A DNA stretch of 64,000 bases from Russula earlei (taxonomy: Eukaryota; Basidiomycota; Agaricomycetes; Russulales; Russulaceae). The position numbers and the translations under genes are program-made. Under the pieces are notes generated by a model. That model was not told the DNA's origin and did no database searches. It saw only the letters and a list, made by a program, of their open reading frames with translations. The stretch is taken from contig JAGFNK010000083.1 in NCBI GenBank assembly GCA_025769875.1, positions 62,001 through 126,000 on the forward strand, read 5' to 3'. Shown piece after piece: positions 15,287-38,625 of the stretch (position 1 is its first letter; each line of letters opens with the position of its first letter).

Positions 15287-15582
15287 TGTCACAGGAGCTT
15301 GTCGTGTTGGACGAATCTAATGCTGACAGCTCAAAGGGAAGCGATACACGCCAGCAAGGCATAGAGCTGGCAGTAAGACGTGGCACCGAAATATTCCCGT
15401 GTTCGTGTATATAACATGTAGCTTGCGTACCATGTAGACCCCAAGTCAAATCTCCTGTCTCTTAGTCTCGTAGCCTCTCAATTGTAGTCTCTTGTCCACT
15501 CACAGGCGTTCGGAACGCTTACTCGTACATCTATTGCTATTCAAGTCTCTCGTTATCGTCGCTACCCCAAGTGACGGTGACA
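15287..15582 (+). repeat. D 5' LTR with promoter
   Basis: 296 bp, tgtcacagg...gacggtgaca. TATA box tatataa is at 15408-15414. The likely transcript start and primer segment, aagtcaaatct, is at 15443-15453. The short length and high identity to the 3' LTR suggest recent insertion. Confidence 0.93.
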
Positions 15583-15584
15583 TT

Positions 15585-15595
15585 AGATTTGACTT
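15585..15595 (+). promoter_or_regulatory. D self-priming primer-binding site
   Basis: agatttgactt starts 2 nt after the 5' LTR. It is the exact complement of aagtcaaatct at 15443-15453, which lies 35 nt past the start of the TATA box. Confidence 0.82.
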
Positions 15596-15628
15596 CCTTT
15601 CTACTCGAATCCAAAGAAACTGGAGCAA

Positions 15629-17521
15629 GTGCTCACAGAAGTCGCGATCGGTGATGACAATCAAAGTGACACAAGCAGTGACAGTAACGTCTCTGTCCCA
15701 CCACCTGCCATCGACGATGCACCGGCAAATCCATACGTGTTTTGGGTCGCAAAAGGCGATAAAGGCTATACATTTGTCGAACACCACATCTATTGCCCTT
15801 CAGGAAGGAAAGTGATTAACAAGAACACTGTACCCATCTACTACCTCGAGAACCATTGTTACGAACTCTCATTTGCCGAAGACCAGCGATTACTCGCAGG
15901 AAAAAGAAGAAAAGACATAGAACGTCTCGAATCAGGACGGACTAAAGAACCTAGCGACACAGAAGAATCAACCGACGACGTCGAAGAAGACGCCACCACT
16001 AACGAACAGATTCACCACGGGCCCATACCACCACTCGACACACCACCACCATACTCGTCGCACGCGCTCCCGCACATCGACCTTACTACGCACACAACCC
16101 TTTCCTTTGCTACATCTTCACCAGGCTTATCCATGGCAGCCGCACCAGTGCAAGTAATTCAAGTCACAGCACCTGCCGCCGCAGCTGCACCACAGCCAGC
16201 GGCCCCACCACTTGCAGACCCGGCACGAATATTACTAGCACTACAAAATGCACTCAGACGAGGAGGTCCAGGAGGACCAGGAGGTCCAGGAGGTCCAGGA
16301 GGTCCAGGAGGCCCTGGAGGACCAGGAGGACCTGGAGGTCCCGGAGGACCACCCGCGCCTATTGCACCAGCACCACAACTGCAAAATGTAGTGCCTATCA
16401 ATCCCGACGTCAAAGTTTCAGGAAATCTCCCTGCAACATTTGACGGAGATCGGAGCCACGCTGAGCGGTTCATAGAAGGAGTAAAAGCCTATTTTCGAAG
16501 CAATATTGGTGTACCTGGTTTCGACTCACCAATACAAAAGGTAGCAATTACCCTCACTTGCATCGAAGGACCTATAGTCGAAGGATGGGTCCGTGACATG
16601 GGAGCTTGGATCGACGGTCTCAACCCCGCCACTGATAACATCCCTGCTGTATGGGATCAATTTGTAGATGAATTCCAAACCCAATTTATGGATACCCAAC
16701 GAGCTCAAAGGGCGCGAGTGACCATAGAAAACCTCAAAATGAAATGGCCCGCCATCGACCAATATGTTTCGGACTTCGAACGATTAGCACGCGAAGCCGG
16801 ATACACCCAAGGAGAAGAGTCCATTACACGTCTCTTCCTCAGAGGCCTAACGCGATCGGTGCTCGGGGACGTACTCATGCACCCAATACCACAAAATTAT
16901 GGAGATATAAAGGAAAAGGCTATCAACGTCACCAAGGCGCAACAACTAAGAAACGCGCTTATGAACAGCGCACAAAATACTAGTCCTACCACACGTGCAC
17001 CAATGGGAAATTGGCGTATGCCGCCCACGTACACTCAACGACAACCATTCTTCACTCAGCGAACTACGAACAATAATGAACAACCCCGGTTCAATTCATC
17101 TAACGCACCACGAACCATGGCGAACCAACCCGTACCAATGGATCTAGACCGCGCACGGATGCCACGACAGTCCAGACCAATGAGAGGGCGAGGATTCGGA
17201 GGACGAGTAGCCCAAATGAATAATACTCGACCACGCATACAACGAAACAATAATTGCTTCGAATGCGGCAAAACCAGCCACTACGCGCGTGATTGTCCCA
17301 AACGCCTCAACTCACAAGCCAACCTCATAGACTGGGAAGCCACGACAGAAGCCATGACGGAAACCACCTACACCGATACCGCTCCATCCAACCCGGTTAG
17401 CGCCGCATGCGCACAACTGAACGCGTTCACTGCAGACCAAAAACGCGAGCTCACAGAAAAATTAGCCTCATCTTCGGATTTTCTCTCAACCAAATCCGTG
17501 CGGCCTGGATTAGGAAAATAG
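15629..17521 (+). CDS. gag: D Gag polyprotein, 630 codons, intact
   Basis: Open from ATG 15629 to TAG. The N-terminal region (NPYVFWVAKGDKGYTFVEHH) resembles the N-terminal Gag module of the sister elements. An acidic, Thr/Pro-rich linker follows. Near residues 210-240 (16259-16350) lies an uninterrupted collagen-like run of Gly-Gly-Pro triplets. The capsid-like part has LPATFDGDRSHAERF, QFVDEFQTQF and YVSDFERLAREAGY. The knuckle CFECGKTSHYARDC is at about 17257-17298. The last 115 bp overlap pol in the -1 frame. I see no canonical slippery heptamer; a GGA AAA TAG context at the stop is the nearest candidate. Confidence 0.93.
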   Translation: MLTEVAIGDDNQSDTSSDSNVSVPPPAIDDAPANPYVFWVAKGDKGYTFVEHHIYCPSGRKVINKNTVPIYYLENHCYELSFAEDQRLLAGKRRKDIERLESGRTKEPSDTEESTDDVEEDATTNEQIHHGPIPPLDTPPPYSSHALPHIDLTTHTTLSFATSSPGLSMAAAPVQVIQVTAPAAAAAPQPAAPPLADPARILLALQNALRRGGPGGPGGPGGPGGPGGPGGPGGPGGPGGPPAPIAPAPQLQNVVPINPDVKVSGNLPATFDGDRSHAERFIEGVKAYFRSNIGVPGFDSPIQKVAITLTCIEGPIVEGWVRDMGAWIDGLNPATDNIPAVWDQFVDEFQTQFMDTQRAQRARVTIENLKMKWPAIDQYVSDFERLAREAGYTQGEESITRLFLRGLTRSVLGDVLMHPIPQNYGDIKEKAINVTKAQQLRNALMNSAQNTSPTTRAPMGNWRMPPTYTQRQPFFTQRTTNNNEQPRFNSSNAPRTMANQPVPMDLDRARMPRQSRPMRGRGFGGRVAQMNNTRPRIQRNNNCFECGKTSHYARDCPKRLNSQANLIDWEATTEAMTETTYTDTAPSNPVSAACAQLNAFTADQKRELTEKLASSSDFLSTKSVRPGLGK

Positions 17522-19620
17522 ATGACAAAGTGTACATGTCAAATAGGAAATCAATGACCATCCGTTTTTACATACACTCTGCCAGCAAGAGGGCCGAAGC
17601 AACTACACTAATCGATTCGGGCGCAACCGAAAATTTCCTCAACCAACAATACGCCCAGGAACTCCAGTTACCAATAAAAAGCATGGAGAAACCTCGCGAA
17701 CTGCTAAACGTAGACGGAACACCAAACAAAATAGGAAAACTTCAATTCTACGTTGATCTACTCGTGCAGACCGGTCGAAATCACACAAAAATGCGATTCT
17801 TCTTAGCCAATTTAGGAGAACATAAAGCCATATTAGGTTACCCATGGTTTGCCGCGGTACAACCAAATATTAACTGGGCTAAGGGCTGGATTGACACATC
17901 ACACCTTCCACTTATCTTCAAAACAGACGACGCGCCAACCTGGCAAAAACCAGTAAAGCTCACGAACCCGCCAACTGAAGAAGAAGATTTGTACATTGGT
18001 TGCATCGTCATCAATACTACGAATGTATCTGAAGCTGTTACTATACCAAAACAATATCAACGCCACTCGAGAGTCTTCAGCGAAGAAGCTGCCCAACGGT
18101 TTCCCGAAACACGAATCTGGGATCACGCCATACAACTCAAACCCGGAGCCCCATCCACATTACCCAGGAAGATATATCCATTAACTCAAAACGAACAAGA
18201 AGAACTACGCAAATTCGTGAAAGAACACCTGGCAAAGGGATATATTCGACCATCAAAATCCCCATACACAGCACCCTTCTTCTTCATCAAGAAGAAAGAC
18301 GGAAAACTTCGACCTGTACAAGACTATCGAAAATTAAACGAATGGACTATATGAAATCAATATCCCTTACCCCTTATTCCCCAACTAATCAATTGTGTTA
18401 GAGGGAGAGAAAAATTCACCAAATTCGATATTCGCTGGGGTTACAACAATGTACGAATCAAAGATGGCGACCAATGGAAGGCAGCCTTCCTTACTAACGA
18501 AGGGTTATTCGAACCAACGGTTATGTTCTTTGGACTCACTAACTCTCCGGCCACGTTTCAAACCATGATGAACGCAATCTTTGAAGAAGAACTCTGCAAA
18601 GGATGGCTCGTAATATACATGGACGATATTCTCATCGCAACCACCAAGGACGATCCAAAGCATGAGGAATATGTACACAAGGTATTGGACAAACTACAAA
18701 AGCATGACTTATACCTCAAACCGGAGAAGTGCCAATTCGAACGAAACACCATCGAATTTTTGGGAGTAATACTACAAGGTAATACCATCCAAATGGACCC
18801 CAAAAAGGTGGCAAGCGTGCGACAATGGCCAACCCTGACTAATCCAACAGAAATACGTGCATTCCTTGGATTCACGGGCTTTTACCGATACTTCATACCC
18901 AACTACTCAAGAATTGCACGACCACTACTCGACCTTACAAAGAAAACAACATCGTGGATTTGGCACAAATCCCAACAAGATGCGTTTGAAACTCTCAAAA
19001 CATTAGTATGTAAAAACCCAGTCCTCACACAACCAAATTACACCAAACCTTTCATATTGGAAACCAATGCGTCGGCGTATGGCGTGGGAGCCATACTCTC
19101 ACAGGAGGGAGAATCAAACTTAAGCCAACGACACAAACCAAAACGACACCCTATTGCTTTCTACTCAGCGACGTTCTCCCCGACAGAGCGCAATTACGAC
19201 ATCTTTGAAAGGGAATTACTAGCCGTCATCAAAGCCCTTAGTCATTGGCGCCCACACTTAGCTGGCACCCAACATCCCATCACGCTACTCACTGATCACG
19301 CCAATCTCACTTATTGGAAAAATCCTCGAAAAGTAAACCGACAAGTAGCACGATGGTTCACAGAGTTACAAGATTACTGGTTAGAAATCAAACACGTCCC
19401 AGGAAAAACCCACTCAGCAGCCGATCTACTGTCTAGACCCCCGATGGAAGACAAAGGACAGAATGATAATGAAGACATAACAATATTACCGCCTAAACTC
19501 TTCATCAATACTCTCCTAATAGGGTCAACTAAAGGACGCCTCGAACAAGCACAAATTCGACACCCAACGCTACTTAAGAACTGGGCACAGACATACGGCA
19601 TCACAAAAACTAATGGACTT
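17407..19620 (+). pseudogene. pol: D Pol part 1: protease, RT, RNase H
   Basis: Protease site TLIDSGATENF (17614-17628) and AILGYPWFAA. RT shows [53 protein letters not shown] (18616-18627) and the connection LGFTGFYRYFIPN. RNase H has ILETNASAYGVGA, where the usual ETDAS catalytic Asp is Asn, plus ERELLAVIKA and TDHANLTYW. One TGA at 18352-18354 sits where an Arg codon is expected (EWTI-stop-NQYPLP). The ORF is cut at 19620 by A3 within TNGL|WQL. Without that TGA and A3 it would be an uninterrupted polyprotein. Confidence 0.93.
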
Positions 19621-20450
19621 TGTTACGAACCAAGGCCAAGTCCTGGCCGAAGATTGTCCTATTTTACTCAAGAAGAACCTCTCTCACTTTGCATTGCCGA
19701 CTCTCTTCCATTTTCTGGGCTATCCCCCCTGCGGTACAAGATATTGCTATTGCAAAGACACTATAACACGACCAGGCACCAGTTTCCTAATCGGGTAATC
19801 ATCGCGTGGCAGCCACATGGCCACCCAGCCACCATGGACCCGAAACAGCAGGCACAAACTCTTAGAAACTGTTGCATAAATCATCTGACGTCATCAAGGC
19901 TCCAATGACATCATGGCTGACTGAGCGACTCCACAGTGACCTCATAGGCTCACTAAGCGCTCCACAGTGACATCATAATGATGTCATCGCTCCACAATGA
20001 TCAGTAATACGCTCAGTAAGCCTGAAAGTTGACACAAGCAAGTTTATGCCTCTGTAGTCCTATTGGATGGTACCAAAGAGTCAAGAATAGTCCCAGTGCT
20101 TTGTAATCGACCCTGTATACTGTATATAAGCCCCAATGAAGCATGGCAGTCGTCAGACTGTCCATTTGTGATACTCTCCTCTTCCTGGGTACTCCCCTGC
20201 GACCGCTCAGTTTAAAGATTCCTCTCGCTTCCAAGGTACTCTTCTACGACCGCCTTGTTTAAAGCCCCCTCGTTGCACTGGCTTCTAACCTTCGCCTCTG
20301 CCTCCAGTTACACGTACCAGTCCCCATCTGGTACATCTTAGTCATTTGGCTCGTCCTCTTGTTCAACGCCGCCTACGCCGCGTACCATCTGTTCCGACCT
20401 TTGCCCACCTGCTCCTGAGTCCACACGGATCAGCAGTACGTGTCTTGACA
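19621..20450 (+). repeat. Solo LTR A3 (TSD gactt)
   Basis: 830 bp, tgttacgaacc...gtcttgaca, with gactt at 19616-19620 and 20451-20455. It is inserted between RNase H and integrase of D. Confidence 0.96.
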
Positions 20451-20455
20451 GACTT

Positions 20456-22180
20456 TGGCAACTGAATGGGAGAACAGTAGTCCCACCAGAACTCTCAATC
20501 AAGCGACGACTACTACAGGAACTCCACGACGCCCTGACTGCAGGACACCCAGGTCGAGATGAAACCATCAAACAAGCAGCGTTATGGTATTGGTGGCCAG
20601 GGATGGCCCAATGGATCAAAGACTATGTAGCAGGGTGTCCGACTTGCCAACAAAATAAAATCCAGACACACCCGCCTCGAGTCCCACTATACCGCATCCC
20701 CACAAAACAAGACTCCCTACCATTCCGACAGGTGGCTTTAGATCTCATCACCCAATTACCCAAAAGCTATGGATACAATGCCATTCTAACAATAGTTGAT
20801 CATGGAGCAACCCGAGCAGCACTGTTCCTTCCCTGCTGGACATCAATAACCGGACCGCAAATAGCTCAGCTATACATGGATCATATTTATCGATGGTTCG
20901 GACTACCAGAAAGACTGATAACTGACAGAGATCCTCGCTTCACGTTGCATTTTGGAAGAGCTCTAGCAGCACGCCTCGGCATCAATCAAAACTTATCCAC
21001 GGCATTCCATCCCAGAACTGATGGATCATCAGAACGAGCAAATCAGTGGATCAAGCAATATCTCCACCTTATCACTTACGATCAAACTGACTGGAGCACC
21101 TGGTTATCTGTCGCATCAGCCGTGTACAATAATAAAACCAATGGAACCATCAAAATGTCACCATCGGAAGCACTACTCGGTTATAGAATCCAACTTCACC
21201 CTCAACTCGGGGTTCCAACTAACAACGAGTTCACCAAGACACGTATGGTAACTTTAAGAAACAAACGGGCTCAAGCAATTGCCGCAATCAACCTCATGGC
21301 ACAGAATCATCCGATACCAACCGATATATACCATGAGGGGCAAGAAGTATGGCTAGAAGCCTCGAACCTATCTCTACCATATCTAACCCCCAAGTTGGCA
21401 CCCAAAAGGCATGGGCCATTCAAGATCCGAGAGAAGATCTCCCCTGTGGCGTATCGATTACAACTGCCTGCAACATGGCATGTCCACGACGTCTTCCACG
21501 CCTCACTACTGACACCATATCGGACCACACCTGCTTATGGTACAACCCTTGCAACGCCGCCGCCTCCCCTTCTCGAAGAAGAGGGACAACTAGAACCCGA
21601 AGTTATCCTGAACCATCGACGAATGGGAAGACGCCAACAACTCCAATACTTAGTAAAGTGGGCCAAACGCCCTATCAGTGATGCTACGTGGATAGAAGCG
21701 ATAAACCCCACCTTAAGACCACTACTACCGAAGTATCACCGATCCCAGAAACCTCGCCTACCCATACGTATAAAAGTACCTACACCACATCCCACAACGA
21801 CACCCTTGAACATCTCCACCACGATATGTCTACCATCAGCATCTCCACTCCAGAGACCCGCGTCTCACCTCTCCCCTCTCCAGTCAACCCCATCTCCCCC
21901 AGGACGCTCCAAACCATCCTGGACATGTACACGGACCTGTCCTCTCCTCAATTACGCCTGTTCATCGATGGTCTCATCGAGACCATACGAATTAGGGAGG
22001 TGGGGCAACAGGCCACGTCAGCGGACGCCCAACGTCAGCACAAACGAGTTCTCGAACTCGAGTCACAAGTCACGCGCCTGTCCCAACAACTATAAGAGCG
22101 GGACCAACCTCCTGTTTATGCCCCAGAAGGTGTCAGATCGAACAATGGCCGCGCCCCCAACCTCCTCATTCCAGTCCTAG
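20456..22180 (+). pseudogene. pol: D Pol part 2: integrase and chromodomain
   Basis: Continues in phase with part 1 once A3 and one TSD are removed. The HHCC finger has ELHDALTAGHPG and CPTCQQNK. The core D,D,E are in ALDLITQLP, ITDRDPRF and DGSSERANQW. The C-terminal domain has VWLEASNLSLPY, and the chromodomain has LEPEVILNHRRMG, LQYLVKWAK and DATWIE. The frame remains open past the chromodomain to 22180, overlapping ORF3 in another frame. I would expect the functional protein to end near the chromodomain. Confidence 0.9.
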
Positions 22181-22719
22181 GGGGGAACGGAACGTGTGCG
22201 GTTGCCCGCTTCGTACGCCGCGACCAAGACCGGCCTACTTGGGCCTTGGGAGTACTGGGGGACCAACCAGACAAGCCGCAGTACACAGCTCGTCTCACCG
22301 CAGCCCCCATCAATGATATCAACCAACCCACCGAGAGCCTTCCCCAGTGGTTCGTTCAGCTCATCGGAGCTGAATCAGCCGAACTACCCTACGTCCTTGA
22401 AGAAGCCGACCGCGACACAGACTGGGGGGTCGTGGCTGACATTTTCAGATACAACTCCCTCGACACCCACCTCAGCGACCTGCTTGTCAAGCAGGACATC
22501 CTTGAAGGGGACATACGGGGCATGCGCGATGACCTGCATCGCTGCAGACGCCGCCTTGAGAGGGCCAACGCGGCGACCCAACTCGCCCACCTCGAGCTCC
22601 ATGAACCACCACAAGACGCACCTGCCCCTATCAGGGCAGGATGGAGACGTTTTGGACGAGGACGTCCAACCTTCGCCGAGGGTGATGTCACAGGAGCTTG
22701 TCGTGTTGGACGAATCTAA
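21826..22719 (+). pseudogene. D third ORF, ends inside the 3' LTR
   Basis: Starts MSTISISTPETRVSPLPSP. It stays in one frame to 22719 except for one TAA at 22093-22095, giving about 297 codons. Two regions look coiled-coil forming: QRQHKRVLELESQVTRLSQQL just before the stop, and RCRRRLERANAATQLAHLEL near the end. The last 11 codons lie in the 3' LTR (from 22686), so the LTR supplies the stop. No known domain. It corresponds in place to the third ORF of G1 and F. Confidence 0.65.
22672..22685 (+). other. D polypurine tract (weak)
   Basis: tcgccgagggtga directly precedes the 3' LTR start tgtcac. It is only partly purine, so the call rests on position. Confidence 0.5.
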
Positions 22720-22981
22720 TGCTGACAGCTCAAAGGGAAGCGATACACGCCAGCAAGGCATAGAGCTGGCAGTAAGACGTGGCACCGAAATATTCCCGTG
22801 TTCGTGTATATAACGTGTAGCTTGCGTACCATGTAGACCCCAAGTCAAATCTCCTGTCTCTTAGTCTTGTAGCCTCTCAATCGTAGTCTCTTGTCCACTC
22901 ACAGGCGTTCGGAACGCTTACTCGTACATCTATCGCTATTCAAGTCTCTCGTTATCGTCGCTACCCCAAGTGACGGTGACA
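22686..22981 (+). repeat. D 3' LTR
   Basis: 296 bp. It differs from the 5' LTR at four positions, all transitions and all at CpG versus TpG/CpA sites. The flank gtaga at 22982-22986 matches 15282-15286. Confidence 0.95.
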
Positions 22982-23413
22982 GTAGAGGCCATTACTCATC
23001 ACTGGGGGCCTCCTTACTCAGCAGCTTATGAAACATGACTGAGCATGCTCACTAAGCATTCCCTGATGCCTTACTCATCACTCATTATGCTTGATAACAA
23101 GGTTATGACTTGTCCCCTATTTAGCAGTTCCCTTGTAGTATATAAGTGCTCAATAGAATAATGAACAGTCCTCAGACTGTCCATTTGATTTGTGGCACTC
23201 TATTACTGAGGGTACTCCTTTGTGACCACCCTATCTAGTACAACCTGGCCCTCTCCTTCTGTGACCATCTCTCACAACCAGTACCAGTTCCTCTCTGGTA
23301 CTTGTTACTCATTTGGACTGTGCTTTTGCCAACTTTGTCCTTGAACTCAGTTGACTCATCTCTGTGCTCTTGTCTCACTCTTGAACTGGATTGTTCAACA
23401 GTGAGTTCTGACA
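22982..23413 (+). repeat. E1 LTR, second segment
   Basis: Resumes E1 after D. It contains gagcatgctcactaagc, TATA-like tatataag, the AGACTGTCCA start segment shared with family A, and the family 3' end ttcaacagtgagttctgaca. What follows (gccagcttctg) has no self-priming site, so this is not an obvious 5' LTR border. Confidence 0.85.
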
Positions 23414-23822
23414 GCCAGCTTCTGCTGTGGTAGTGAAAAGAGTTTTCTCTGGGAGTTGAGACACAATCTCCCTCCATCATTCTAGTTTAAAGGCAGAGAC
23501 CATCAGATCCCTTATGCTGGTCAAAATGAGGTTGCACTTAGAACAAGAACACACAAACTGGGCATCTCACACTTAAAATTGTAACATGTGCCATCTGGGT
23601 GGCCACAAAATCACATGCACACATGTATGTGTCATTGTTTCACATCATCATGCACTTTTGTTGTTTCCACTCTCCCTTTGTCCACCTCGCCACCCTTTGA
23701 TCCTCCCCTTTAAGAGTAAGCAGATCTCTTCCTTTCCTCCCTCTCCTTGCTGCTGGCCATCCCTGTTGTATGTGTGTTTGGGATGTAGCTGATGTATCAC
23801 CCTCAACATCCCTGTCACAACA
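23414..23822. other. Unassigned, non-TE-like stretch
   Basis: About 410 bp matching no other part of the window. It has pyrimidine-rich tracts (ctccctctccttgctgctgg) and short ORFs only. I see no gene or repeat. Confidence 0.5.
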
Positions 23823-23977
23823 GGCAGGAAGGGATAAGTTGACTCTGCTTATAGTCAACTCAATGGACAATAAAAGTAGAATATTTCAAGTGCTGAGTAG
23901 GCTCTGTTGTGGCCACAAATTATATTACATAAGTAATGACTTTAGTTGAGCATGAAAAATGTGACAAAAAAGGTTAA

Positions 23978-24060
23978 ATAAGGACAGTCTACTCATTCTG
24001 GCACAACTTTTAGCCAGGCTAGGGTAATATGTTGTGCTGGAATGAGTAGACTGTCCTTAT
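23978..24060. mobile_element. 83-bp MITE with about 30-bp TIRs (TSD taa)
   Basis: Starts ataaggacagtctactcatt and ends with its inverted copy. The 30-bp arms differ at two bases. It is flanked by taa at 23975-23977 and 24061-24063. It is too small to encode anything and needs a transposase in trans. A 3-bp TAA target points to PIF/Harbinger. Confidence 0.8.
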
Positions 24061-24063
24061 TAA

Positions 24064-24616
24064 GGCCCCTTTTACCAACCAAGAATTCTTGAATCTTGAA
24101 CTTGAACTTGGATTTCGGGATTTTCTGGGAGTGACAGGAGTGACAGGAGTGATGTAAGTGATATGATGTATATAATAAATTAATATGCATTTTTTTTTGT
24201 TGTCATTTGCATACTCACATATTTGGGGTTACACATGATGTGTCAGCGTCAAACTCGGAGTCGAGCAGTCCAACTCGAGCTCAACATCTGGGTGCTTGCA
24301 GCCCCATTTTCACCAGAGCTGCACATACAAAATTTGCACAAAGATGTGCACCCACACATTGGTGACACATATTCTGCCTTATGACATGCTTGCAATACCC
24401 CACTTGGAAGGAGTGGAAGGAAGGGTTAGAAAAAATATTTTACATATCACATGTAAATCCAGCAAATCACACTGGAAAATAACTCATATTTGAAATGGAC
24501 TCATATTAGTTTATTATGTCACTTACATCACACCTGTCATTCCTGTCACTCCCGGAAAATCCTGAAATCCAAGTTCAAGTTCAAGATTCAAGAATTCTTG
24601 GTTGGTAAAAGGGGCC
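24064..24616. mobile_element. Harbinger-like non-autonomous element (TSD taa)
   Basis: 553 bp with perfect ggccccttttaccaacc termini extending into imperfect TIRs of about 110 bp. It is flanked by taa at 24061-24063 and 24617-24619. GG-CC-rich ends and a TAA target are typical of PIF/Harbinger. The middle (about 24180-24500) is AT-rich with no long ORF, so it is non-autonomous. Confidence 0.78.
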
Positions 24617-25430: not shown

Positions 25431-26219
25431 GAGAGGTGGTCATGGAAGGAGAGAGCCAGAGTGTGCTAGATAGGGTGGTCCTAAAGGAGTACCCCCAGTA
25501 GTAGAGTGCCGCAAATTAAATGGACAGTCTGAAGACTGTCCGCTACTTTATTGAGTGCTTATATACTACAAGGGAACTGCTTAATGGGGAACAAGTCATA
25601 ACCTTGTTATCAAGCACACTTGACAGATGAGTAAGAAGTTGGAGTATGCTTACTGAGCATGCTCAGTCATGCTCAGTAAGCTGCTGAGTAAGAAGGCTCA
25701 TATTGATGAGTAAGAGCATGCAAAGCACCTGATTCATTTACTGTTAGTTAGTTTAGGGCCAGTCATCTGAGGACTTGTGGTTTGGTCCAGGGAATAGAGT
25801 TGTCCATAAGGCCCCTTATATAGTTCTATTAGAGTCCTTAGACTCGACCCTAATATCCCTATTAAGGTCCTTAGTATTGCCTTATAGTTCATTCTAAGGT
25901 TATTAGAGTTAGTCTAATAATGTGTTATAGGGCCTATAGTATCTTCATTAGTGCCTCTTGTAGAGCACTTTGGGTCGTCCTAAAGGGTTTTTAGGGAGCC
26001 TATAATACTGTATTATATTGCTAGAAGGGTTGCCACTAAGAAGGGCTTGTTGTATGTCGATTGTGCCAAGAATCAATTGTGTGACAATGCACGTGCAATA
26101 TTGTGGACACCTCTACTCACCCCTTTTGTCCATGTGAACAGGGTGGCATCATAGAGGCTGGGTTTTCTCTAATAAGGAAGGGTCCTTCAGGGGCCCTCTC
26201 TGGGAAATAGTTCATGACA
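25289..26219 (-). repeat. LTR E3 (flanks do not match)
   Basis: 931 bp in minus orientation. The start tgtcatgaac at 26219 and the R/U5 part match E2 (gttgaacaatccagttcaag, agtctgaagactgtcc). The flanks cattg (25284-25288) and tgctg (26220-26224) differ. No primer site or polypurine tract adjoins either side, so it may be a recombinant LTR. Confidence 0.8.
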
Positions 26220-26376: not shown

Positions 26377-27642
26377 TGTTACAACATTTTCCCTTTACGT
26401 TTAATTCTTACCTTTTACTATGGACTGTTGCTTCCATACGTCCCTTTACTTACTGGTCTTGTGAACTCTTATGTCTTGTGATCCTTTCTCTGTTATCATG
26501 TGATCCATACATGTCCAGGTAACATTGGATTGCTGTTACTTTCCCTTTGTTTGGTTCTCTTTCCTTTTATATTTGCTTCTTAGTTTTGACTGTGCAATGC
26601 TGTGCACTGTTGAACCGGAACCCAAACAGATCAAAGAAGGCGAAGACCTTCATACAAGGTTCAAGATCCGCTCATAGATGTTACGTGTTAGACAGAACTT
26701 TAGTATATGCGCTTATGGCAATAGGGTTACGCATACTACGCTATCTATCACAAGATGCAGCCTTATGCTGCATCTAGAACATTTCCACATCATGCGTCAC
26801 TCAATGCGCGATATAGTGGACACCTGTAGTCACCTCTTTTGGACTTAGGAACAGCCCTGGGTCATAGAGGTATAAATACCATACTTGTAGACGAGTATAC
26901 ACATTGCTCTACAACCCAATATAACTTGAGCATTAGCACAACCTCTAAGGTGGGTTGCTTGGCCTGTTAGCTGCGCTCTATGCCGTGCAACATGCACCTA
27001 CTGTGCAGCACAGTCATTTGCTTCTGACTCATTTGTGGCCTAATTTCTATGACTCCTACTTATTATGACTCCTACTATACTAGTAGCACAGTCAAAGTGC
27101 AGCTATTGCTGCACTTCTCCTGTATATATAAGCTCAGTACTTTGTGACCAAAGCCCTAAGCTTGGTCTCTTGTAGAATCCAACCTACTCTTGTCCAACAT
27201 TTTCACCTGCAACCCACTCCACTCCTAATCCTCAAACCACATCCACCTCTCCATTTCATCAACTCCTCACACACACACACCATCTACCATCTACTCTCTC
27301 TCCCTATCCCTAAGAGTCTCTCTTCACTCTACTGAGAAGAGCTCTCCTCCTTAAAGACCTACCTTCCTCTCCTCTCTGCATGTTCAAGGTCTATGACAGA
27401 CTTGAATGCATATAGCTAGTGGAGCCGGCCCTAGTCTATCCCATTACAATTTACCCTGGCTTCTCAACAGACCAAGTCATACTAGGAAGGGTCTATTGGC
27501 CATGACCTGTTTAGCATAAAACACTTTGACCGCTGCAGGGATCCTTATCCTTTACAACAGGAACCAGCCCATTCTTCAAACTCACCTTTACTACCAAACT
27601 TGTCTTCAGGCTTGAGAACTGACATGGCTAGTTACCATGACA
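26377..27642 (+). repeat. F 5' LTR carrying a solo Copia LTR
   Basis: tgttacaac...ccatgaca, about 876 bp without the inserted Copia LTR. It matches F1 and F2. TATA tatatata is at 27123-27130 and the primer segment aagcttggtct at 27158-27168. It has a PPT-independent left border with flank atatg; no partner flank is in the window. Confidence 0.9.
26608..26992 (+). repeat. Solo Copia LTR (TSD tgcac)
   Basis: 385 bp, tgttgaacc...gtgcaaca, the same family and length as 14499-14883. It is flanked by tgcac at 26603-26607 and 26993-26997, and inserted in the F 5' LTR. Confidence 0.95.
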
Positions 27643-27644
27643 TC

Positions 27645-27655
27645 AGACCAAGCTT
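27645..27655 (+). promoter_or_regulatory. F self-priming primer-binding site
   Basis: agaccaagctt begins 2 nt after the 5' LTR. It is the exact complement of aagcttggtct at 27158-27168, about 35 nt past the TATA box. Confidence 0.82.
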
Positions 27656-27657
27656 TA

Positions 27658-28486
27658 TGTCAAGACACGTACTGCTGATCACTAAGGACTCAGGAGCAGG
27701 TGGGCAAGGGTCAGAACAGATGGTACACGGCGTAGGCAGCGTTGAACAAGAGGACAAGCCAAATGACTAGAATGTACCAGATGGGGACTGGCACATGTTG
27801 CAGGAGGCAGAGGCAAAGAGCAGAGGCCAGTGCAGCGAAGGGGCTTTAAACAAGGCGGTCGTTGAAGAGTACCTTGGAGGCAGGGGAAGTCTTTAAACTG
27901 AGCGGTCGCAGGGGAGTACCCAGGAAGATGCGAGTATCACAAATGGACAGTCTGACGACTGCCATGCTTCTTTGGGGCTTATATACAGTGCACAGGGTTG
28001 ATTACAAAGAACTGGAACTATTCTAGACCCTCTGGTACCATCCAATAGGACTACAGAGGCATAAACTTGCTTGTGTCAAGTTTCAGGCTTACTGAGCGCA
28101 TTACTGAGCATTGTGGAGCGATGACATCATTATGATGTCACTGTGGAGCGCTTAGTGAGCCTATGAGGTCACTGTGGAGTCGCTCAGTCAGCTATGATGT
28201 CATTGGGGCCTTGATGATGTCAGATGAGTTGTGCAACAGTTTCTAAGAGTTTGTGCCACTGTTTTGGGTTCCTGGTGGCTGGGTGACCATGTGGCTGCCA
28301 CGCGATGATTACCTGATTAGGAAACAGGTGCCTGGTCGTGTTATAGTGTCTTTGCAATAGCAATATCTTGCACCGCAGGAGGGATATCCCAAGAAACGGA
28401 AGGGAGTTGGTAATGCAAAGTGAGAGAAGTCTCTCTTGAGTGGAATAGGACAATATTCGGCCAGTACCTGGCCTTGGTTCGTAACA
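27658..28486 (-). repeat. Solo LTR A4 (TSD cttta)
   Basis: 829 bp, minus orientation, tgtcaagacac...ttcgtaaca, with cttta at 27653-27657 and 28487-28491. It lies in the F leader, right after the primer site. Confidence 0.95.
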
Positions 28487-28511
28487 CTTTATGCTTCACA
28501 ATAGCTTCTAC

Positions 28512-30328: not shown

Positions 30329-30760
30329 ACTACCTGGCCTTAGTTCAAGCTGTCTTCCCTAGTGATGTATTTGTAGCAAGACTCAATTCAATCAAAGTTC
30401 CTGTTCAAGTACACACTAGTGGACAAAGAGCTGATCTCATTGCTCTCTTGGACAGTGGAGCAACCAACAACTTCATTCACAAGAATATCATCACTTGCTA
30501 CAGATTCTCAGTTACCACTCTACAAAAGCCAAAAATCATGCACAATTTAGATGGTACTCACAATAAAGCTGGTACTGTCACAGAAGCAGTCAACCTTTAC
30601 ATTTGATTTAAGGGACAAGAACATCAAATGCACTTCTATGTCACTGAAATATCCACCGATGACATGCTTCTTGGCTTCCCATTCCTCTGTGCTACCAACC
30701 CTACTATTGATTGGACTAAAGGAACCCTTGAGGATACTGTTGTAGCCTCTACTTGGGGTG
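30325..30760 (+). pseudogene. pol: F aspartic protease
   Basis: Active site ALLDSGATNNF at 30451-30465, then HNLDGTHNKAGTV and, after a stop near 30604, DDMLLGFPFLCATNPTIDW. The frame is interrupted at STWG by A+ and resumes at 49777. Confidence 0.85.
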
Positions 30761-32129
30761 TGTTATGAACCAAGGCCAGGTACTGGCCGTATATTGTCCT
30801 ATTCTACTCAAGAGAGACCTCTCTCACCTTGCATTACCAACTCCCTTCTGTTTCTTGGGCTATCCCTCCTGTGGTGCAAGATATCGCTATTGCAAAGGCA
30901 CCATAACACGACCAGGCACCCATTTCCTAATCGGGTAATCATCACGTGGCAGCCACATGGTCACCCAGCCACCAAGAACCCGAAACAGCAGCACAAACTC
31001 TTAGAAACTGTTGCATAACTCATCTGACATCATCAAGGCTCCAATGACATCATGGCTGACTGAGCAACTCCACAGTGACCTCATAGGCTTGCTAAGTGCT
31101 CCACAGTGACATCATAATGATGTCATCGCTCCACAAAGATCAGTAATGCGCTCAGTAAGCCTGAAACTTGACACAAGCAAATTTATGCCTCTGTAGTCCT
31201 ATTGGATGGTACCAAAGTGTTAAGATCAGATTGATCTTATTGCTGACTCTTAGTGGAAGAGTTGCTTGATTTAGTTCAAGCACTAAACTTTGATTCCTTT
31301 GATATTATCTCAGGAAGAATAGATGTAAGAGAAGAGAGGGGCCTCTTCCACCTGGAGTTCTCCTATAGACTGAGCAGAGAGTTTTAACAAGATGAATGTT
31401 TCTTGTTATGAAAAGAGTAAGTCGAGCGTAAGGCTCAACTTCACAGTACCACAGACTATTTATATGATATCTCCACAACTACTGATCCGATTCGTACGAA
31501 ACTTGAGGTACACATAGCTGAGAACCAGTAGTATCCACATACGTAGAGCGCAATTTGAGAATGTCAGAAATGACTCACGCGTGAGTCATTCCTTCCTAGT
31601 ATCTGTCATCAATCAGTAAGTAGTGAGTAAGCCATTACCAACCAATCAGTAAGCAGATCAATAAGCGATCACCAATCTAGATGAGTAAACACAAATGAGT
31701 CACCAGAGCATAGGTAAGCAGACGAGAACAAGGAGGCACAAGAATCCTAACACAAAGGGTCTAGAATAGTTCCAGTTCTTTGTAATCGACCCTGTACACT
31801 GTATATAAGCCCCAATGAAGCATGGCAGTCGTCAGACTGTCCATTTGTGATACTCTCATCCTCCTGGGTACTCCCCTGCAACCGCTCAGTTTAAAGATTC
31901 CCCTCGCCTCCAAGGTACTCTTCAACGACTGCCTTGTTTGTAGCCCCTTCGCTGCACTGGCCTCTAGTCTTCGCCTTTGCCTCTTGCAACACCTACCAGT
32001 CCCTATCTGGTACTTCCTCGTCATTTGGCTCATCCTCCTGTTCAACACCGCCCTCGCTGTGTACCATCTGTTCCGACCCTTGCCCACCTGCTCCTGAGTC
32101 CTTAGTGATCAGCAGTACATGTCTTGACA
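30761..32129 (+). repeat. A+ 5' LTR (A5) with nested B1
   Basis: 829 bp once B1 and one TSD are removed. TATA is at 31802-31809 and the primer segment agactgtcca at 31834-31843. Confidence 0.93.
31218..31752 (-). repeat. Solo LTR B1 (TSD caaag)
   Basis: 535 bp, tgttaagatc...cctaaca, with caaag at 31213-31217 and 31753-31757. A TATA-like tataaata on the minus strand suggests minus orientation. It is related to B2. The internal part of family B is not in the window. Confidence 0.93.
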
Positions 32130-32131
32130 TC

Positions 32132-32141
32132 TGGACAGTCT
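32132..32141 (+). promoter_or_regulatory. A self-priming primer-binding site
   Basis: tggacagtct begins 2 nt after the 5' LTR. It is the exact complement of agactgtcca at 31834-31843, 32 nt past the TATA start. The first 92 bp of the A leader (32130-32221) survive here. Confidence 0.78.
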
Positions 32142-32221
32142 CTCATCATCCCTGTATTGACCAGCCAATGCTCAAGTGTCCACTCCTAACTCCCCCACTT
32201 TGGTTAACACCTCCTTGTGCC

Positions 32222-33050
32222 TGTTACGAACCAAGGCCAGGGCCTGGCCATAGATTGTCCTCTTTCACTCAGGAGAGACCTCTCTCACTTTGCATTGCTG
32301 ACTCCCTTCCATTTTCTGGGCTATCCCTCCTGCGGTACAAGATATCGCTATTGCAAAGGCACTATAACACAACCAGGCACCCGTTTCCTATTCGGGTAAT
32401 CATCGCGTGGCAGCCACATGGCCACCCAGCCACCAAGGACCCAAAACAGTGGCACAAACTCTTAGAAACTGTTGCATAAATCATCTGATGTCATCAAGGC
32501 TCCAATGACATCATGGCTGACTGAGCGACTCCACGGTGACCTCATAGGCTCACTAAGCGCTCCACAGTGACATCATATTGATGTCATCGCTCCACAACAA
32601 TCAGTAATGCGCTCAGTAAGCCTGAAACTTGACACAAGCAAGTTTATGCCTCTGTAGTCCTATTGGATGGTACCAAAGAGTCTAGAATAGTCCCAGGTCT
32701 TTGTAATCGACCTTGTACACTGTATATAAGCCCCAATGAAGCATGGCAGTCGTCAGACTGTCCATTTGTGATACTCTCATCTTCCTGGGTACTCCCCTGC
32801 GACCGCTAAGTTTAAAGATTCCCCTCGCTTCCAAGGTACTCTTCAACGACCGCCTTGTCTAAAGCCCCTTCGCTGCACTGTCCTCCAGTCTTCGACTCTG
32901 CCTCTTGCAACACCTACCAGTCCCTATCTGGTACCTCCTCGTCGTTTGGCTCATCCTCCTGTTCAACGCCACCTTCGCCGCGTATCATCTGTTCTGACCT
33001 TTGCCCACCTGCTCCTGAGTCCTTAGTGATCAGCAGTACATGTCTTGACA
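32222..33050 (+). repeat. LTR A6 with mismatched flanks (recombinant)
   Basis: 829-bp A-family LTR. The flanks are gtgcc (32217-32221) and atgtg (33051-33055). It joins the A+ leader on the left to the interior of an inverted C element on the right. Unequal recombination between two A LTRs, deleting what lay between, would give exactly this. Confidence 0.85.
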
Positions 33051-33965
33051 ATGTGTATGCTATGTTCACCTTCGATTTCCAGCTTGTCCACTTGCCACTA
33101 CCTTTCCTAGGGAGTCTGGACTTGTGTGCCCGCTTACCACTGTCTATGCCAATGACAGTAGGGGTCTTTACAGAAGTATGTGTGTGTCCAACCATGCTGC
33201 TCATCGAGGGTCACGTAGTACACCTTCTTCTTGTCATGGAGAGGTCTGTATAGATTCTCTCCCTTGACTACTTCAGCATAGGTTGCTGACCGTATGATGA
33301 CTAGATCCTAGTCCTAAGGCTTCCTGCCTATTTCTGGTTCGCTTTCACAGCGATGTCTGTGATAGAAGCTCCACTAATGTTAAGGCTCCAAAGTGCCTTA
33401 AATAAGATCAATGGTTGTGTCTATGAACGTGTCCTACCAATGCAGATATGCTTGAGTCAAGCAAGCAATACTCGTGGAGGGGAAGGAGTGTTAGATCCTT
33501 CTAGAGTATGACAACAAGATGAGAGGGGCTCTGCAGAAGGGGTAGGAGTCAACTATTTGGGATTGGCAAACTAAGTCCAGCTTAAGGCCCAACTGTTTCT
33601 ACTGGAGGCTTTATATAGCCCTACAGGAATAAGGTTCATGCTACTGTAGTACTGGTTGGTGCTATAGAAGCAAAAGGCGGCTCATAGAAGCGAGGTTGCT
33701 TCTATGTAAACGATCTTGGTGCTGGAAGCATTAAGTGCTTCCCCAATCAAGGAATCGACGTACATGGCGGTACAGGAACATCTGGGACAGAAGCAATGCT
33801 ACTCATTGCTTCTTCAGTACATCCTCTGAAAGATATGATCAATGCGTTCTGAATGTGATGTCAACGAACATGAACAATCAAGATCTGACGCACGCATAAT
33901 GCAAACAGTGCAGTCCATAGTTCAGGTGTTCCGGCATCTTCCGGACCCCAAACCACTCGGTGACA
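33051..33965 (-). repeat. Truncated inverted C element: 5' LTR plus 327 bp of leader/gag
   Basis: 33965-33378 on the minus strand is a C LTR (tgtcaccgagtgg...gccttaaca). 33377-33051 matches the C+ interior from 38614 on, ending after the gag start region. The rest of this C copy is missing. Downstream at 33966 A gag resumes (EPFDGKADNAEAF), so the C copy had inserted in A+ gag. Confidence 0.88.
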
Positions 33966-34729
33966 CAGAACCCTTTGATGGAAAGGCTGATAACGCAGAA
34001 GCCTTTTGGGCAGCTTTGGCCAATTATTACTACATCAATGGCAACTCCTTTACAGATGAAAGCAAGAAAGTCGCCGCTGCACTAACCCACTTTAAAGTAG
34101 GAACACCTGCTGGAGCATGGGCTAGAGAACAAACCACTAAGGCTATGGCTCATACAGTAGCAGACTATGGATCATGGGACGACTTCAAGAAAGCCTTTGC
34201 CGATCACTTCATCCCTGCAGAAGCAGAATTAGCCTCCGCTAACACCATGCACACCTATTATCAAGGGAAACTACCATTTAATGAATGGTATCAGAAATGG
34301 TCACACCACGCATCACGAGCTACCACCGACAAAAGAACAAAGATGTACGCATTTAGGAAGAATATTAACCTGGCCCTACATCAGAAAATATTGGGGATCA
34401 CACCGACACCAACTACACTTACAGCTCTTGTCAAAGCAGCAAGAGAATTTGACAACCTTTTCCACCTATACAACTCCACTGCTTTTCGAGGAGGACGCTC
34501 TGTGCATGCCCAAGGATTAAACACTCAAGGATCAGACAATCCATTTGAAATTAACTTGTACCAAGGAGAACCTAACAAACGACCCTGGGAATCCAGAAGT
34601 GAAAGGAAACCCCTCACAGATGCAGAGAAACAGTTTCGACGCAAGAACAACCTCTGTTATTATTGTGGAAAGAAGAACCATATGGCAAATCAATGTAGAG
34701 CAAAGAAAGCAGCCCAAGGATGCCAATGA
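33966..34729 (+). pseudogene. gag: A+ gag, N-terminus lost
   Basis: Matches the A- Gag from EPFDGKADNAEAF onward: WDDFKKAFADHFIP, TYYQGKLPFNEWYQKWSHHA, and knuckle CYYCGKKNHMANQC near the end. The upstream third of gag was removed with the A6/C rearrangement. An ATG at 33842 within the C LTR fragment is in frame by chance. Confidence 0.87.
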
Positions 34730-34827
34730 CAAGGATCTTGCCCCCAAACAGTCAGAGCTACAACCATCCAAGATGAAAACATTGAACCTACACAAGAAGA
34801 ACCCATTCCTGTTGCATCATTGACAAC

Positions 34828-35313
34828 TTGGAGAGAAACACTTGCGGACTCAATCCTCCACCCAAGATCTGCTCCTATGGATTTTTAATTGGACCCCCTT
34901 CTGCATCAAGAAGGGACGTGGTCCAAATCAGTACGATACAACGAGAAATCAATTACCCCAAGGTTTTTACCAAGAATATTCGCTCCCCATCTATTGCCTT
35001 GAAAGTTACTTTAGTGGGGAAAACAAGTGGCAAAGAAATCGGTGCAAGAGCCCTGCTCGACAGTGGAGCAGAAGGAATGATAATCCACGAATGATTTGCA
35101 CAAAGACACCACCTGCACCTCCGAACTATGACCAGACCATTGACAGCACAAAATGTAGATGGAACACAAAATGCCAATGGACTAATACACTTTAGCACCA
35201 TCCAAAGACTTCGCATTCAAGTGCACACAGGCGCTACTCATGACGAACAAGCAGAATTCCTTGTCACTAACATTGGAGATCACGACATCATCTTAGGAAC
35301 AGATTGGCTATGA
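34828..35313 (+). pseudogene. pol: A+ aspartic protease
   Basis: Active site ALLDSGAEGMIIHE at about 35059-35070, then QNVDGTQNANGLIHFST and DHDIILGTDWL. TGA codons follow HE and TDWL. The A- copy has CGA (Arg) at the first of these and also TGA at the second. Confidence 0.87.
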
Positions 35314-35385
35314 CACCACAACCCAGATATCGATTGGGCAAATGACACAATCACACTGAGGAATTGCCCCCAAACCTGCCTTACC

Positions 35386-36656
35386 ATGCACCCAAGCATA
35401 ACCATTGCATCTGCATCTGGAACACGGAATTACCAAATACAAGCACTTACTTTTCCTGAAGAAGAAGAACCTGAGTTTGCAAATGTTGCTGCACTAATCT
35501 TCCCAGATACTGAAGGACTATTGAACCCATGTGTTGACAAACAAATCTACAATGCATTTAGACTAGTGACAATCAGCATAAGAGCCAAATCAACCACAGC
35601 TACCAAACTAGCCCATGCAGAAACACCCCCCAAGACATTAGACGAACTTATCCCTGCCCAGTTCTTGAAATGGCAAAAGGTTTTTGACAAACAAGCTTCT
35701 CAACGCCTTCCTGCTCACCAACCATGGGACCATGCAATCAATCTAAAACCAGGGATCGCCCGACGCGATTCTGGCATCTACTGACTTACTCCCAAGGAAC
35801 TACAAGCCCTAAAAGAATACTTAGACGAACATTTGAAAAGAGGCACAATCCGACCATCAAAATAGCTATTGCCAGCCCATTCTTCTTTGTAGAAAAGAAA
35901 GGAGGAAATCTACGACCGGTACAAGACTACAGAGCCCTGAATACAGCAACTGTCAAAGACGCATATCCATTACCTTTGATTCCTGAATTAATTGACAAAC
36001 TCCAAGGAGCTCAATACTTCACCAAGTTTGACGTATGATGGGGATACAACAATATCCACCTAAGAGAGGGTGATGAACACCTCGCAGCATTCAAGACACC
36101 ATTAGGACTCTTCAAGCCATTGATAATGACATTTGGTCTCTGCAACGCCCCAGCCACTTTCCAACACTTTATGAACACCATCCTAGCAAAATATGTTGCC
36201 ACTGAACGAGTGGTCATTTACCGAGATGATATACTGATCATGGCGCAAACCTTGAACGAATTAGACAACTGGACACACAAGGTCCTAAAGACACTCCAAG
36301 ACCATGACTTATACTTGAAACCAGAGAAATGCACTTTTCGACAAACCTCTATTAGTTACCTAGGCATCAATATCTCCCAAGGACGAATATTGATGGACCA
36401 AGACAAGTTAATAGGTATTACAATGTGGCCTACTCCAACCAACATTACAGAAGTACAAGCATTTCTAGGATTCTGCAACTTCTATCGACAATTTATCCAC
36501 CAATACTCACGGATAGCGCAACCCTTGTTTAACTTAACAAAGAAAGAAAACCCCTTCAAGTGGGAAGACAATGAAGAACAAGCATTTCAAAAACCAGTCC
36601 AAGCATTCACAACTGCCCCGATCCTCATGTTACCTGATCATACTAAACCCTTTTGA
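35386..36656 (+). pseudogene. pol: A+ protease-RT linker and reverse transcriptase
   Basis: The linker ends in [12 protein letters not shown] has [24 protein letters not shown]-stop-WGYNNI, MTFGLCNAPATFQ and LKPEKCTF, then the connection [13 protein letters not shown]. The catalytic box reads YRDD (36219-36230) instead of a YVDD/YMDD-like motif. TGA codons interrupt at several Arg positions, including about 36036 and 36654. Confidence 0.88.
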
Positions 36657-37222
36657 CTCATCTGCGATGCAAGCAACTTTGCAGTCGGCGCAATCTTGGA
36701 ACAACCTGATGAATTTAATAGATATCACCCAGTAGCCTATTTCTCGAAATCCTTGGACCCCGCACAATGAAATTACATGATCTACGATAAAGAACTCCTT
36801 GCTATTGTCTTATCCCTCTGGCACTTCCGACACTACTTTGAAGGCGCTACACACCCCATTGATCTATGGACAGACCACAATAACTTAACATACTTCATGA
36901 CAAAACAAAAACTCACAAGACGACAAGCCCTGATGGGCACTCCTTCTCAGCAACTTTTGACTTCACTATCACCCATCACCCAGGAATTATGAACAAAGCA
37001 GACAGTCTGTCCAGGCGGCCAGACTTTAAAGAGGGGATACAAAATGAAAACAATGGAAAGGTGCTCCTAGATGACAAATTTTTTAAAATTAGAGCAACAC
37101 GCACCTCTGCTACAGAACCAATCGGCAACCAAGAACTTCGACAACAACTACAATCTAGTAAAGACTATGACCCAGAAGTATCTAACACATTAGCAATCAT
37201 TATAAAGAATGGACCAAGATGA
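36657..37222 (+). pseudogene. pol: A+ RNase H
   Basis: LICDASNFAVGAI, then [12 protein letters not shown] and [10 protein letters not shown] small deletion after RRQA shifts the frame compared with A-. [13 protein letters not shown] then resumes. Dead copy. Confidence 0.85.
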
Positions 37223-37478
37223 TTATCCAAAGGCTTACAGGACTGGAACCTCGAAGATGGACTAATATTATTCAAAGGAAAAGTGTATATCCCAACAATG
37301 ACACCCTAAGAAAGAAAATTCTGAAACTACATCATGACTCCCTCGCCACTGGGCATCCTGGCCAATGGAGAACTTACGAACTAATCAGCCAAAACTATTG
37401 GTGGCCAGGAATGCTAACCTATGTCAAAAGTTACATAGACAGTTGCGCAATTTGCCAAAGTACAAAGAACCGCCCAAA
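37219..37478 (+). pseudogene. pol: A+ integrase zinc-finger part
   Basis: HHCC motif: LHHDSLATGHPG, NYWWPGMLTYV, CAICQSTKNRP. It is cut at 37478 by C+. The continuation at 47629 restores NRPKTETPL, as in A-. Confidence 0.88.
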
Positions 37479-38613
37479 TGTTACTGAGTGGTTTGGGGTC
37501 CGAAGATGCCGGAACACCTGAACTATGGACTGCACCATTTGTATTATGCGTGCGTCAGATCTTGATCGTTTATGTTCCTTGATATCACGTTAGGAGCGCG
37601 TTGATCGTATCTTTCAGAAGATGTACTGAAGAAGCAATGAGTAGCATTGCTTCTGTCCCAGATGTTCCTGTACCACCACGTACGTTGATTCCTTGATTGG
37701 GGAAGCACTTAATGCTTCCAGCACCGAGATCGTTTACATAGAAGCAACCTCGCTTCTATGAGCTGCCTTTTGCTTCTATAGCACCAACCAGTACTACAGT
37801 AGTACGAACCTTATTCCTGTAAGGCTATATAAAGCCTCCAGTAGAAACAGTTGAGCCTTAAGCTCGACTTAGTTTGCCAATCTGTTAAGATCTGACAGAT
37901 CTTAGTACCGACTCTTCTGGTGAAAGAGTTGCTTGATATAGTTCAAGCACTAGACTTCGAACCCTTTGATATTATCTCAGGAAGATTGAATGTAGAAAAG
38001 AGAGGGGCCTCTTTCAGTTAGAGTCTGCACTATAGTTTTGTTTTTAGATCGTGTGACAAGATAGTTATCTTTGCCAAAAGGTGTAAGTCAAGCGTAAGGC
38101 TCGACTTCTTGGTACTACAGACTATTTATACGATATCTCGATAACTACTGATCCGATTCGTATGAAACTCGGGGTGTACATAGCTGAGAACCAGTAGTAT
38201 CCAAATACAGAAAGCGCAATTCAGAATGTCAGAAATGACCCACGCGTGAGTCATTCTTTCCTAGCAATCAGTAAGCAATCAATAAGCAATCAGTAAGCAA
38301 TCAGTAAGCAATCAGTAAGCCATCAGTAAGCCATCACTAAGCCAGATTGATAAGCGGGCACATGAGTAATCACAGATGAGTCAGCAGAAACAGACGACAG
38401 TTCGAGAGTCAAGAGAATCTTAACACAATCCCAAACAGTTGACTCCTACCCCGTCTGCAGAGCCCCTCTCATCTTGTTGTCATACTCTAGAAGGATCTAA
38501 CACTCCTTCCCCTCCACGAGTATTGCTTGCTTGACTCAAGCATATCTGCATTGGTAGGACGCATTTATAGACGCGACCATTGATCTTATTTAAGGCACTT
38601 TGGAGCCTTAACA
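37479..38613 (+). repeat. C 5' LTR with nested B2
   Basis: About 587 bp without B2. TATA tatataaa is at 37826-37833 and the primer segment aagctcgactta at 37860-37871. B2 sits right after the presumed transcript start. Confidence 0.92.
37883..38425 (-). repeat. Solo LTR B2 (TSD caatc)
   Basis: 543 bp, tgttaagatc...atcttaaca, with caatc at 37878-37882 and 38426-38430. It contains a run of caatcagtaag repeats at about 38273-38335. Confidence 0.94.
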
Positions 38614-38625
38614 TAAGTCGAGCTT
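38614..38625 (+). promoter_or_regulatory. C self-priming primer-binding site
   Basis: taagtcgagctt starts at the first base after the 5' LTR. It is the exact 12-nt complement of aagctcgactta (37860-37871), 34 nt past the TATA start. Confidence 0.85.

Follow-up and report, generated by a model that had tools for sequence, protein, structure and literature searches.

The stretch of Russula earlei DNA analysed here (64,000 nucleotides (nt) of contig JAGFNK010000083.1; hereafter the window) carries several families of long terminal repeat (LTR) retrotransposons, designated D, C, F, G1, A, E and H. The primer-binding site (PBS) of these elements, just past the LTR, is complementary to a segment within the LTR that lies where the RNA presumably begins, and in most families that same place encodes a hairpin. 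We conclude, with a probability of about 0.85, that they are Ty3/gypsy chromoviruses which self-prime minus-strand complementary DNA in the manner of Tf1, the initial 10-14 nt of each element's RNA serving as primer.

Element class

A domain search of ten open reading frames (ORFs) at curated cut-offs was used to read the coding regions of C and D. The C ORFs scored above cut-off for reverse transcriptase (RT), RNase H, the integrase zinc-binding domain, SH3_Tf2-1 and Chromo, and below it for gag, protease and the integrase core; those of D scored above it for gag, RT, RNase H and SH3_Tf2-1, while Chromo reached 24.7 bits vs a cut-off of 25.1 and the integrase core is not among the D domains listed. 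Among the best 120 of 1734 relatives of the C integrase ORF, SH3_Tf2-1 is present in all and Chromo in 119/120. Domains having been read in C and D, G1 and A are placed in the class solely through the resemblance of their DNA to RT-bearing loci; the pol DNA of D and of G1-type elements is ~70-76% alike over aligned stretches.

Exact pairing with a constant geometry

The original prediction, made from the letters of the window, held that five families carry Tf1-type self-priming sites with a constant TATA spacing. In D, C, F, G1 and A, the LTR segment and the PBS are exact reverse complements (Table 1), so that all five of the pairs it had named stand. The spacing it had given, 32-35 nt, was recovered on measurement: the partner segment starts 35 nt downstream of the first T of the TATA motif in D, 34 nt in G1, 35 nt in F, 32 nt in A and 34 nt in C. 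Its account of the gap was equally correct: in C the PBS follows the LTR end (CA) directly, and in the other four families it is offset by 2 nt. In all five families the first base of the partner segment is an A preceded by a pyrimidine, and an A after a pyrimidine resembles a start of RNA polymerase II. From the TATA spacing and this type of start, the primer segment is presumed to be the RNA 5' end.

Chance pairing of this kind is rare. When the LTR stretch was shuffled letter by letter (n=3000) and the longest complement starting 0-3 nt past the LTR was recorded, the observed length was reached in 0/3000 shuffles for D (11 nt), 1/3000 for G1 (12 nt) and 5/3000 for A (10 nt), and in 0/3000 both for the F copy L082 (12 nt) and for the C copy L069 (12 nt). 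Since the test ignores the position of the TATA motif, chance pairing must be rarer still.

Pairing across genome copies

Further copies were sought in the host genome (66.6 Mb); the counts cover the best-scoring matches of each search, and those for D and G1 take in the copy in the window. Pairing is complete (11/11) in 16/20 PBS-bearing D copies (L031, which is the same copy as L014, being excluded) and reaches 10/11 in two others, and one copy has a deletion in the PBS; in the distant D copy L115 (partner AAGTCGAATCT, PBS AGATCTAACTT) both halves are changed and 8/11 positions pair. All but one of the 23 G1 copies (22/23) pair 11/11, the remaining one having a deletion in the partner, and L112 also pairs. 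The PBS is present in 6/16 fetched F copies, where pairing is 11/11 in 6/6 and likewise in L113; A pairs in 15/16 copies and C in 10/10. The F/G1-type PBS following the LTR end TGACATY has 384 genome matches vs 3 in a reversed control, and 97 of the 100 matches listed are of G1 or F type. One match to this pattern with an odd PBS (L111) showed no pair and is probably due to chance. Two RT-bearing loci, L164 and L165, have no TATA-linked self-complement in the 3.9 kb and 3.8 kb, respectively, upstream of RT; the LTR may lie outside these stretches, and they count neither way.

Two further families predicted from solo LTRs

The five families listed in the original prediction are there, but 'all five' was an undercount: the window also contains LTRs of E and H, which are predicted to self-prime as well, and at least one more repeat (7107-7708) that is left unclassified. 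The TATA-spaced segment of the E solo LTRs predicted a PBS, TAAGTYRAGCGT, at most 3 nt from the LTR end AACA, and this prediction found 26 genome matches vs 0 in the reversed control. Twenty-five of these copies were fetched (one more lies at a contig end); 11 pair at 12/12 positions, 6 at 11/12 and 3 at 10/12. The E variants in PBS and primer (L119-L143) are mainly C-to-T or G-to-A changes at CG, and look like methylation decay or mutation akin to repeat-induced point mutation, not compensation.

Family H came from a scan of the window for TATA-spaced hairpins (41584, 53259 and 25565), and its primer segment is identical to that of A. The predicted H LTR end plus PBS has 57 exact matches, 80 at up to 2 mismatches and 141 at up to 3, with 0 in the control even at 3 mismatches; because an A-type LTR end occurs in 16/20 of the 3-mismatch rows listed, the 141 are not all H. 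Among 14 H copies fetched, pairing is 10/10 in 7, 9/10 in 2 and 8/10 in 2, and the other 3 are unreadable, without an intact partner.

It is highly improbable that a transfer RNA (tRNA) primes these elements and that the LTR match is a coincidence. The PBS of A and H do start with TGG, as a PBS for a tRNA 3' end would, but those of D, C, F, G1 and E do not. A tRNA 3'-end match at the PBS, named in the original prediction as a result that would count against it, was looked for in 20 of the 63 listed tRNA genes (some kinds being represented more than once) and by a pattern search of the genome, and was not found: in these 20/63 genes no primer match exceeded 4 nt at the 3' end or 6 nt anywhere, and shuffled primers did equally well; an exact tRNA-like B box plus AGACTGT, sought for A and H, was not found in the genome, and allowing at most 2 mismatches gave 150 matches vs 195 in the reversed control. 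Geometry, copy number, the outcome of the E and H predictions and the lack of a tRNA match give good support to the self-priming that was originally claimed, the part of it that speaks of first RNA bases drawing on the TATA spacing and the start after a pyrimidine. Tf1-type self-priming is the best reading and is probably right, but the mechanism itself is already known from Tf1/sushi chromoviruses.

A hairpin at the U3/R junction

A PBS-like arm lies directly upstream of the primer segment in six of the seven families (not D), that is, in the unique 3' region (U3) of the LTR next to the repeat region (R). Arm and primer segment can pair into a hairpin that has the presumed RNA start at its centre, in the loop (Table 1); the D junction has 3 pairs only. 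The hairpin is probably real as a structure. No other LTR window is as stable as the 27-nt junction in G1 (0/477, some flank included), A (0/779) and E (0/493); in C and F, 17/538 and 13/600 other windows are as stable. Median junction energies over copies, those without an exact primer segment being left out, are -14.0 in G1 (31/31 read), -9.1 in F (17/17), -10.3 in C (10/10), -13.9 in E (14/25), -11.7 in A (16/16), -13.6 in H (10/14) and -1.4 in D (31/35), and shuffles of the left 15 nt reach the median in 0-1.8% of cases in the six families vs 26.6% in D. Across the window, a TATA motif with an unbroken stem of at least 8 base pairs (bp) occurs 9 times, vs a mean of 1.4 and a maximum of 4 in 20 block shuffles; the nine belong to C, E, G1 and H, and F and A are missed owing to their bulges.

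The hairpin also covaries across four families. In a comparison of G1, F, C and E (one copy per family, the F bulge dropped beforehand), every compared stem pair is standard, pairs 4, 6, 7 and 8 are changed on both sides, with pair 6 being A-T, C-G or T-A, and the PBS changes along with the stem pairs between families. A sense-strand G-U pair, tolerable in RNA, occurs in 10/10 C copies and 2/16 A copies. As for conservation of the primer segment, it stands out in D (0/252 windows as conserved) and G1 (13/439), and does not in A, E and C. The match between U3 arm, primer and PBS is a practical signature: starting from solo LTRs, it pointed here to the PBS of E and H. Titles, abstract openings and passages of the open-access literature on self-priming contain no mention that we found of a U3/R hairpin in self-primed elements, and the hairpin is possibly new.

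A possible guard for the spare primer copy

Because U3 lies upstream of the RNA start, genomic RNA would contain the hairpin at its 3' LTR alone, and its 5' end would lack the arm. The RNA of such an element would, unlike that of tRNA-primed elements, carry its primer twice. The first 10-14 nt would fold back onto the PBS just past the 5' LTR; were the 3' copy to settle on the PBS instead, RNase H could cleave the RNA at the 3' R, on which strand transfer depends. We tentatively propose that a U3-encoded guard hairpin hides the spare primer in the 3' R from both PBS and RNase H, leaving the PBS to the 5' copy alone, and that the arm coevolves three ways with primer and PBS. The computed cost of opening the primer segment, at the 3' copy and at the 5' end, is 14.7 and 6.3 kcal/mol in G1, 12.6 and 0.4 in E, 9.6 and 4.1 in C, 9.2 and 4.8 in F, and 8.7 and 2.8 in H, and only 0-2 of 50 arm shuffles reach as high in these five families. 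In D, the costs are 1.8 and 0.5 kcal/mol, and with 22/50 shuffles as high they are not above control.

Alternatively, the palindrome might be a core-promoter DNA element, for example the site of a dimeric factor, in place of an RNA structure. We consider this somewhat unlikely: the palindrome does sit between the TATA motif and the start, and the matching stretch of D is conserved without pairing, but its sequence varies between families while pairing persists, where a fixed factor should hold its site constant, and the G-U pair of the C and A copies also argues for RNA. The arm could also join the RNA ends: pairing between the 5' primer segment and the 3' U3 arm would close the RNA into a circle for strand transfer. 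The arm repeats the PBS sequence and occurs only at the RNA 3' end, and the 5'-3' bipartite PBS described in a passage on Ty3 (PMC4974528) sets a precedent; this reading is nevertheless improbable, given that the nearest partner of the arm is the adjacent 3' R across a loop of 4-5 nt, which should win kinetically. That the palindrome is a functionless by-product of template switching seems similarly improbable, since it is found in junctions read from six families and four stem pairs are changed on both sides, even if D manages without it. Finally, an RNA start upstream of the arm, which would put the hairpin at the RNA 5' end with one arm pairing with the PBS, is compatible with a start presumed from sequence but quite improbable, because it would lie at most 21-24 nt past the TATA motif and because complementarity to the PBS takes in loop bases, as expected for an RNA end in the loop.

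Several observations weigh against self-priming with a guard hairpin as a general scheme for these families. Some copies have lost all or part of the pairing, and 5/25 E copies have no recognisable partner within the stretch. D is without the hairpin (140/246 other LTR windows fold as well as its junction); D presumably self-primes without it, and the hairpin is hence not required. In A, the opening cost is 4.5 kcal/mol at the 3' copy and 2.5 at the 5' end, with 24/50 shuffles as high, so that masking is not above control. The junctions of G1, F, C and E may descend from a single ancestor, and these families are then not independent. Conservation of the arm within families is unremarkable, the non-pairing D stretch ranking as conserved as the G1 arm, and we rejected arm conservation as separate evidence given that this control is equally conserved. 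Lastly, a passage in PMC10085805 describes a 'pretzel' in Tf1, with two extra duplexes beside the PBS; a scan for contiguous stems in D, G1, F, A, C and E gave none clearly above shuffles, the best case being a 9-bp stem in G1 that 11/60 shuffles reached.

Selection on pairing or renewal by copying

The original prediction also saw in the differing but always complementary pairs strong evidence for selection on pairing. Both halves do change between families: the D and G1 primers have five differing positions, and the PBS is changed to match. Co-variation within families is what failed to appear; a search for compensatory changes in each of the seven families gave none, and both halves are near-invariant or decaying. 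By the established reverse-transcription scheme of LTR elements, the plus strand of a self-primed element would copy the primer into part of the new PBS. Complementarity could therefore be renewed, and may persist, by copying, and change between families is no proof of selection.

Feature coordinates and nested insertions

Table 1. Primer segments, PBS, U3 arms and hairpins of the putatively self-priming families; positions are those of the window
Feature	Position	Strand	Remarks
Family D 5' LTR	15287-15582	+	3' LTR 22686-22981; element flanked by target duplication GTAGA
D primer segment (presumed RNA 5' end)	15443-15453	+	TATA 35 nt upstream; without hairpin
D PBS	15585-15595	+	exact complement; 2-nt gap past LTR
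Family C 5' LTR	37479-38613	+	split by E solo LTR 37883-38425; 3' LTR end 47628
C primer segment	37860-37871	+	3' LTR copy at 47423-47434
C U3 arm AGTTGAGC	37849-37856	+	pairs with GCTCGACT of primer segment, 5-nt loop
C PBS	38614-38625	+	exact complement; gap 0
C hairpin, sense			AGTTGAGC-CYTAA-GCTCGACT
Family F LTR	26377-27642	+	apparently split by insert ~26608-26992 (ends approximate)
F primer segment	27158-27168	+	complement of F PBS
F U3 arm GACCAAAGC	27146-27154	+	pairs with primer segment, one bulged A
F PBS	27645-27655	+	2-nt gap past LTR
F hairpin, sense			GACCAaAGC-CCTAA-GCTTGGTC, one bulge
Family G1 5' LTR	11274-11767	-	3' LTR ~341-833, minus strand
G1 primer segment	11536-11546	-	complement of G1 PBS
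G1 U3 arm GAGAACAAGC	11550-11559	-	perfect 10-bp stem with primer segment, loop CTTAA
G1 PBS	11261-11271	-	2-nt gap past LTR
G1 hairpin, sense			GAGAACAAGC-CYTAA-GCTTGTTCTC
Family A 5' LTR	30761-32129	+	split by E solo LTR 31218-31752
A primer segment	31834-31843	+	complement of A PBS
A U3 arm TGGCAGTC	31823-31830	+	pairs with primer segment, one bulge
A PBS	32132-32141	+	2-nt gap; starts TGG; tRNA match not found
A hairpin, sense			TGGCAGTC-GTCA-GACTGtCCA, one bulge
Family E solo LTR	37883-38425	-	target duplication CAATC; primer segment 38084-38095; U3 arm 38099-38107
Family E solo LTR	31218-31752	-	target duplication CAAAG; primer segment 31418-31429; U3 arm 31433-31441
E hairpin, sense			AAGTCGAGC-CTTAC-GCTCGACTT
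Family H solo LTR	40899-41860	+	upstream end approximate; primer segment 41619-41628; U3 arm 41608-41615; TATA 41584
H primer segment, second LTR copy	53215-53224	-	hairpin present
H primer segment, third LTR copy	25521-25530	-	hairpin present
H hairpin, sense, best copies			TGGACAGTC-YTCA-GACTGTCCA

Nested insertions are common in the window: an A LTR lies in D (19621-20450), E in the C and A LTRs, and an H LTR in C (40899-41860), and an H-type LTR is apparently split by the whole D element (14889-15284 and 22987-23418). An A LTR starts at 27658, two bases past the F PBS (region 27645-27657), and the region 30761-33050 holds an A LTR and PBS followed only 92 bases on by a second complete A LTR, as though an element had kept no more of its interior than the first bases. 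The repeat at 7107-7708, a 602-base insert within an F-type LTR, is ~83% like part of L002 and represents a further family; the RT of L002 is ~73% like A pol. L002 was considered as an F-type element and rejected, its LTR-like part matching 7097-7581, mostly inside the ~7107-7708 insert, without TATA[AT]A, and we leave it unclassified. An ORF at 12278-13291 (minus strand) with Pol_BBD and, weakly, gag_pre-integrs is taken for a Copia element, and G000, TGACATCCCCAGGAAGCTT, with seven identical short matches, is probably another repeat.

Comparison with known self-primed systems

Passages of PMC10085805, PMC4600332 and PMC7175516 present self-priming as established for Tf1 and report it throughout the Tf1/sushi group (Tj1, Tosmo1-3, Tcry1), and passages of PMC2864245, PMC3601003 and PMC5006619 treat it as well; the present work thus adds families, not the principle. 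With Tf1 and Tf2 of S. pombe and the Tf1/sushi group, the families share a post-LTR PBS that can pair with the ~11 nt at which the RNA presumably begins and, as read in C and D, a gag-pol with RT, RNase H, a Tf2-like integrase SH3 and a chromodomain, the last being clear in C. The first of these traits, a PBS complementary to an LTR segment of ~11 nt at the presumed RNA start, is present in all seven families. They differ in the U3/R hairpin, which the passages on Tf1/sushi elements leave unmentioned (Tf1 being compared by its description there), and in the R-to-PBS distance, here 142-491 nt. A passage of PMC7175516 proposes self-priming for Tcn1 of Cryptococcus neoformans and suggests that Tcn2-5 may prime in novel ways; Tcn1 is alike as a chromovirus proposed to self-prime, a likeness taken from its description. 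What the two-copy primer problem and its candidate answer, the hairpin, offer to this group is a testable question, namely how a self-primed element picks the right RNA end. In Ty3 of S. cerevisiae, according to a passage of PMC4974528, a PBS-related sequence also lies at the RNA 3' end, but Ty3 is primed by the initiator tRNA, whereas in the families described here the PBS-like arm adjoins a copy of the primer itself.

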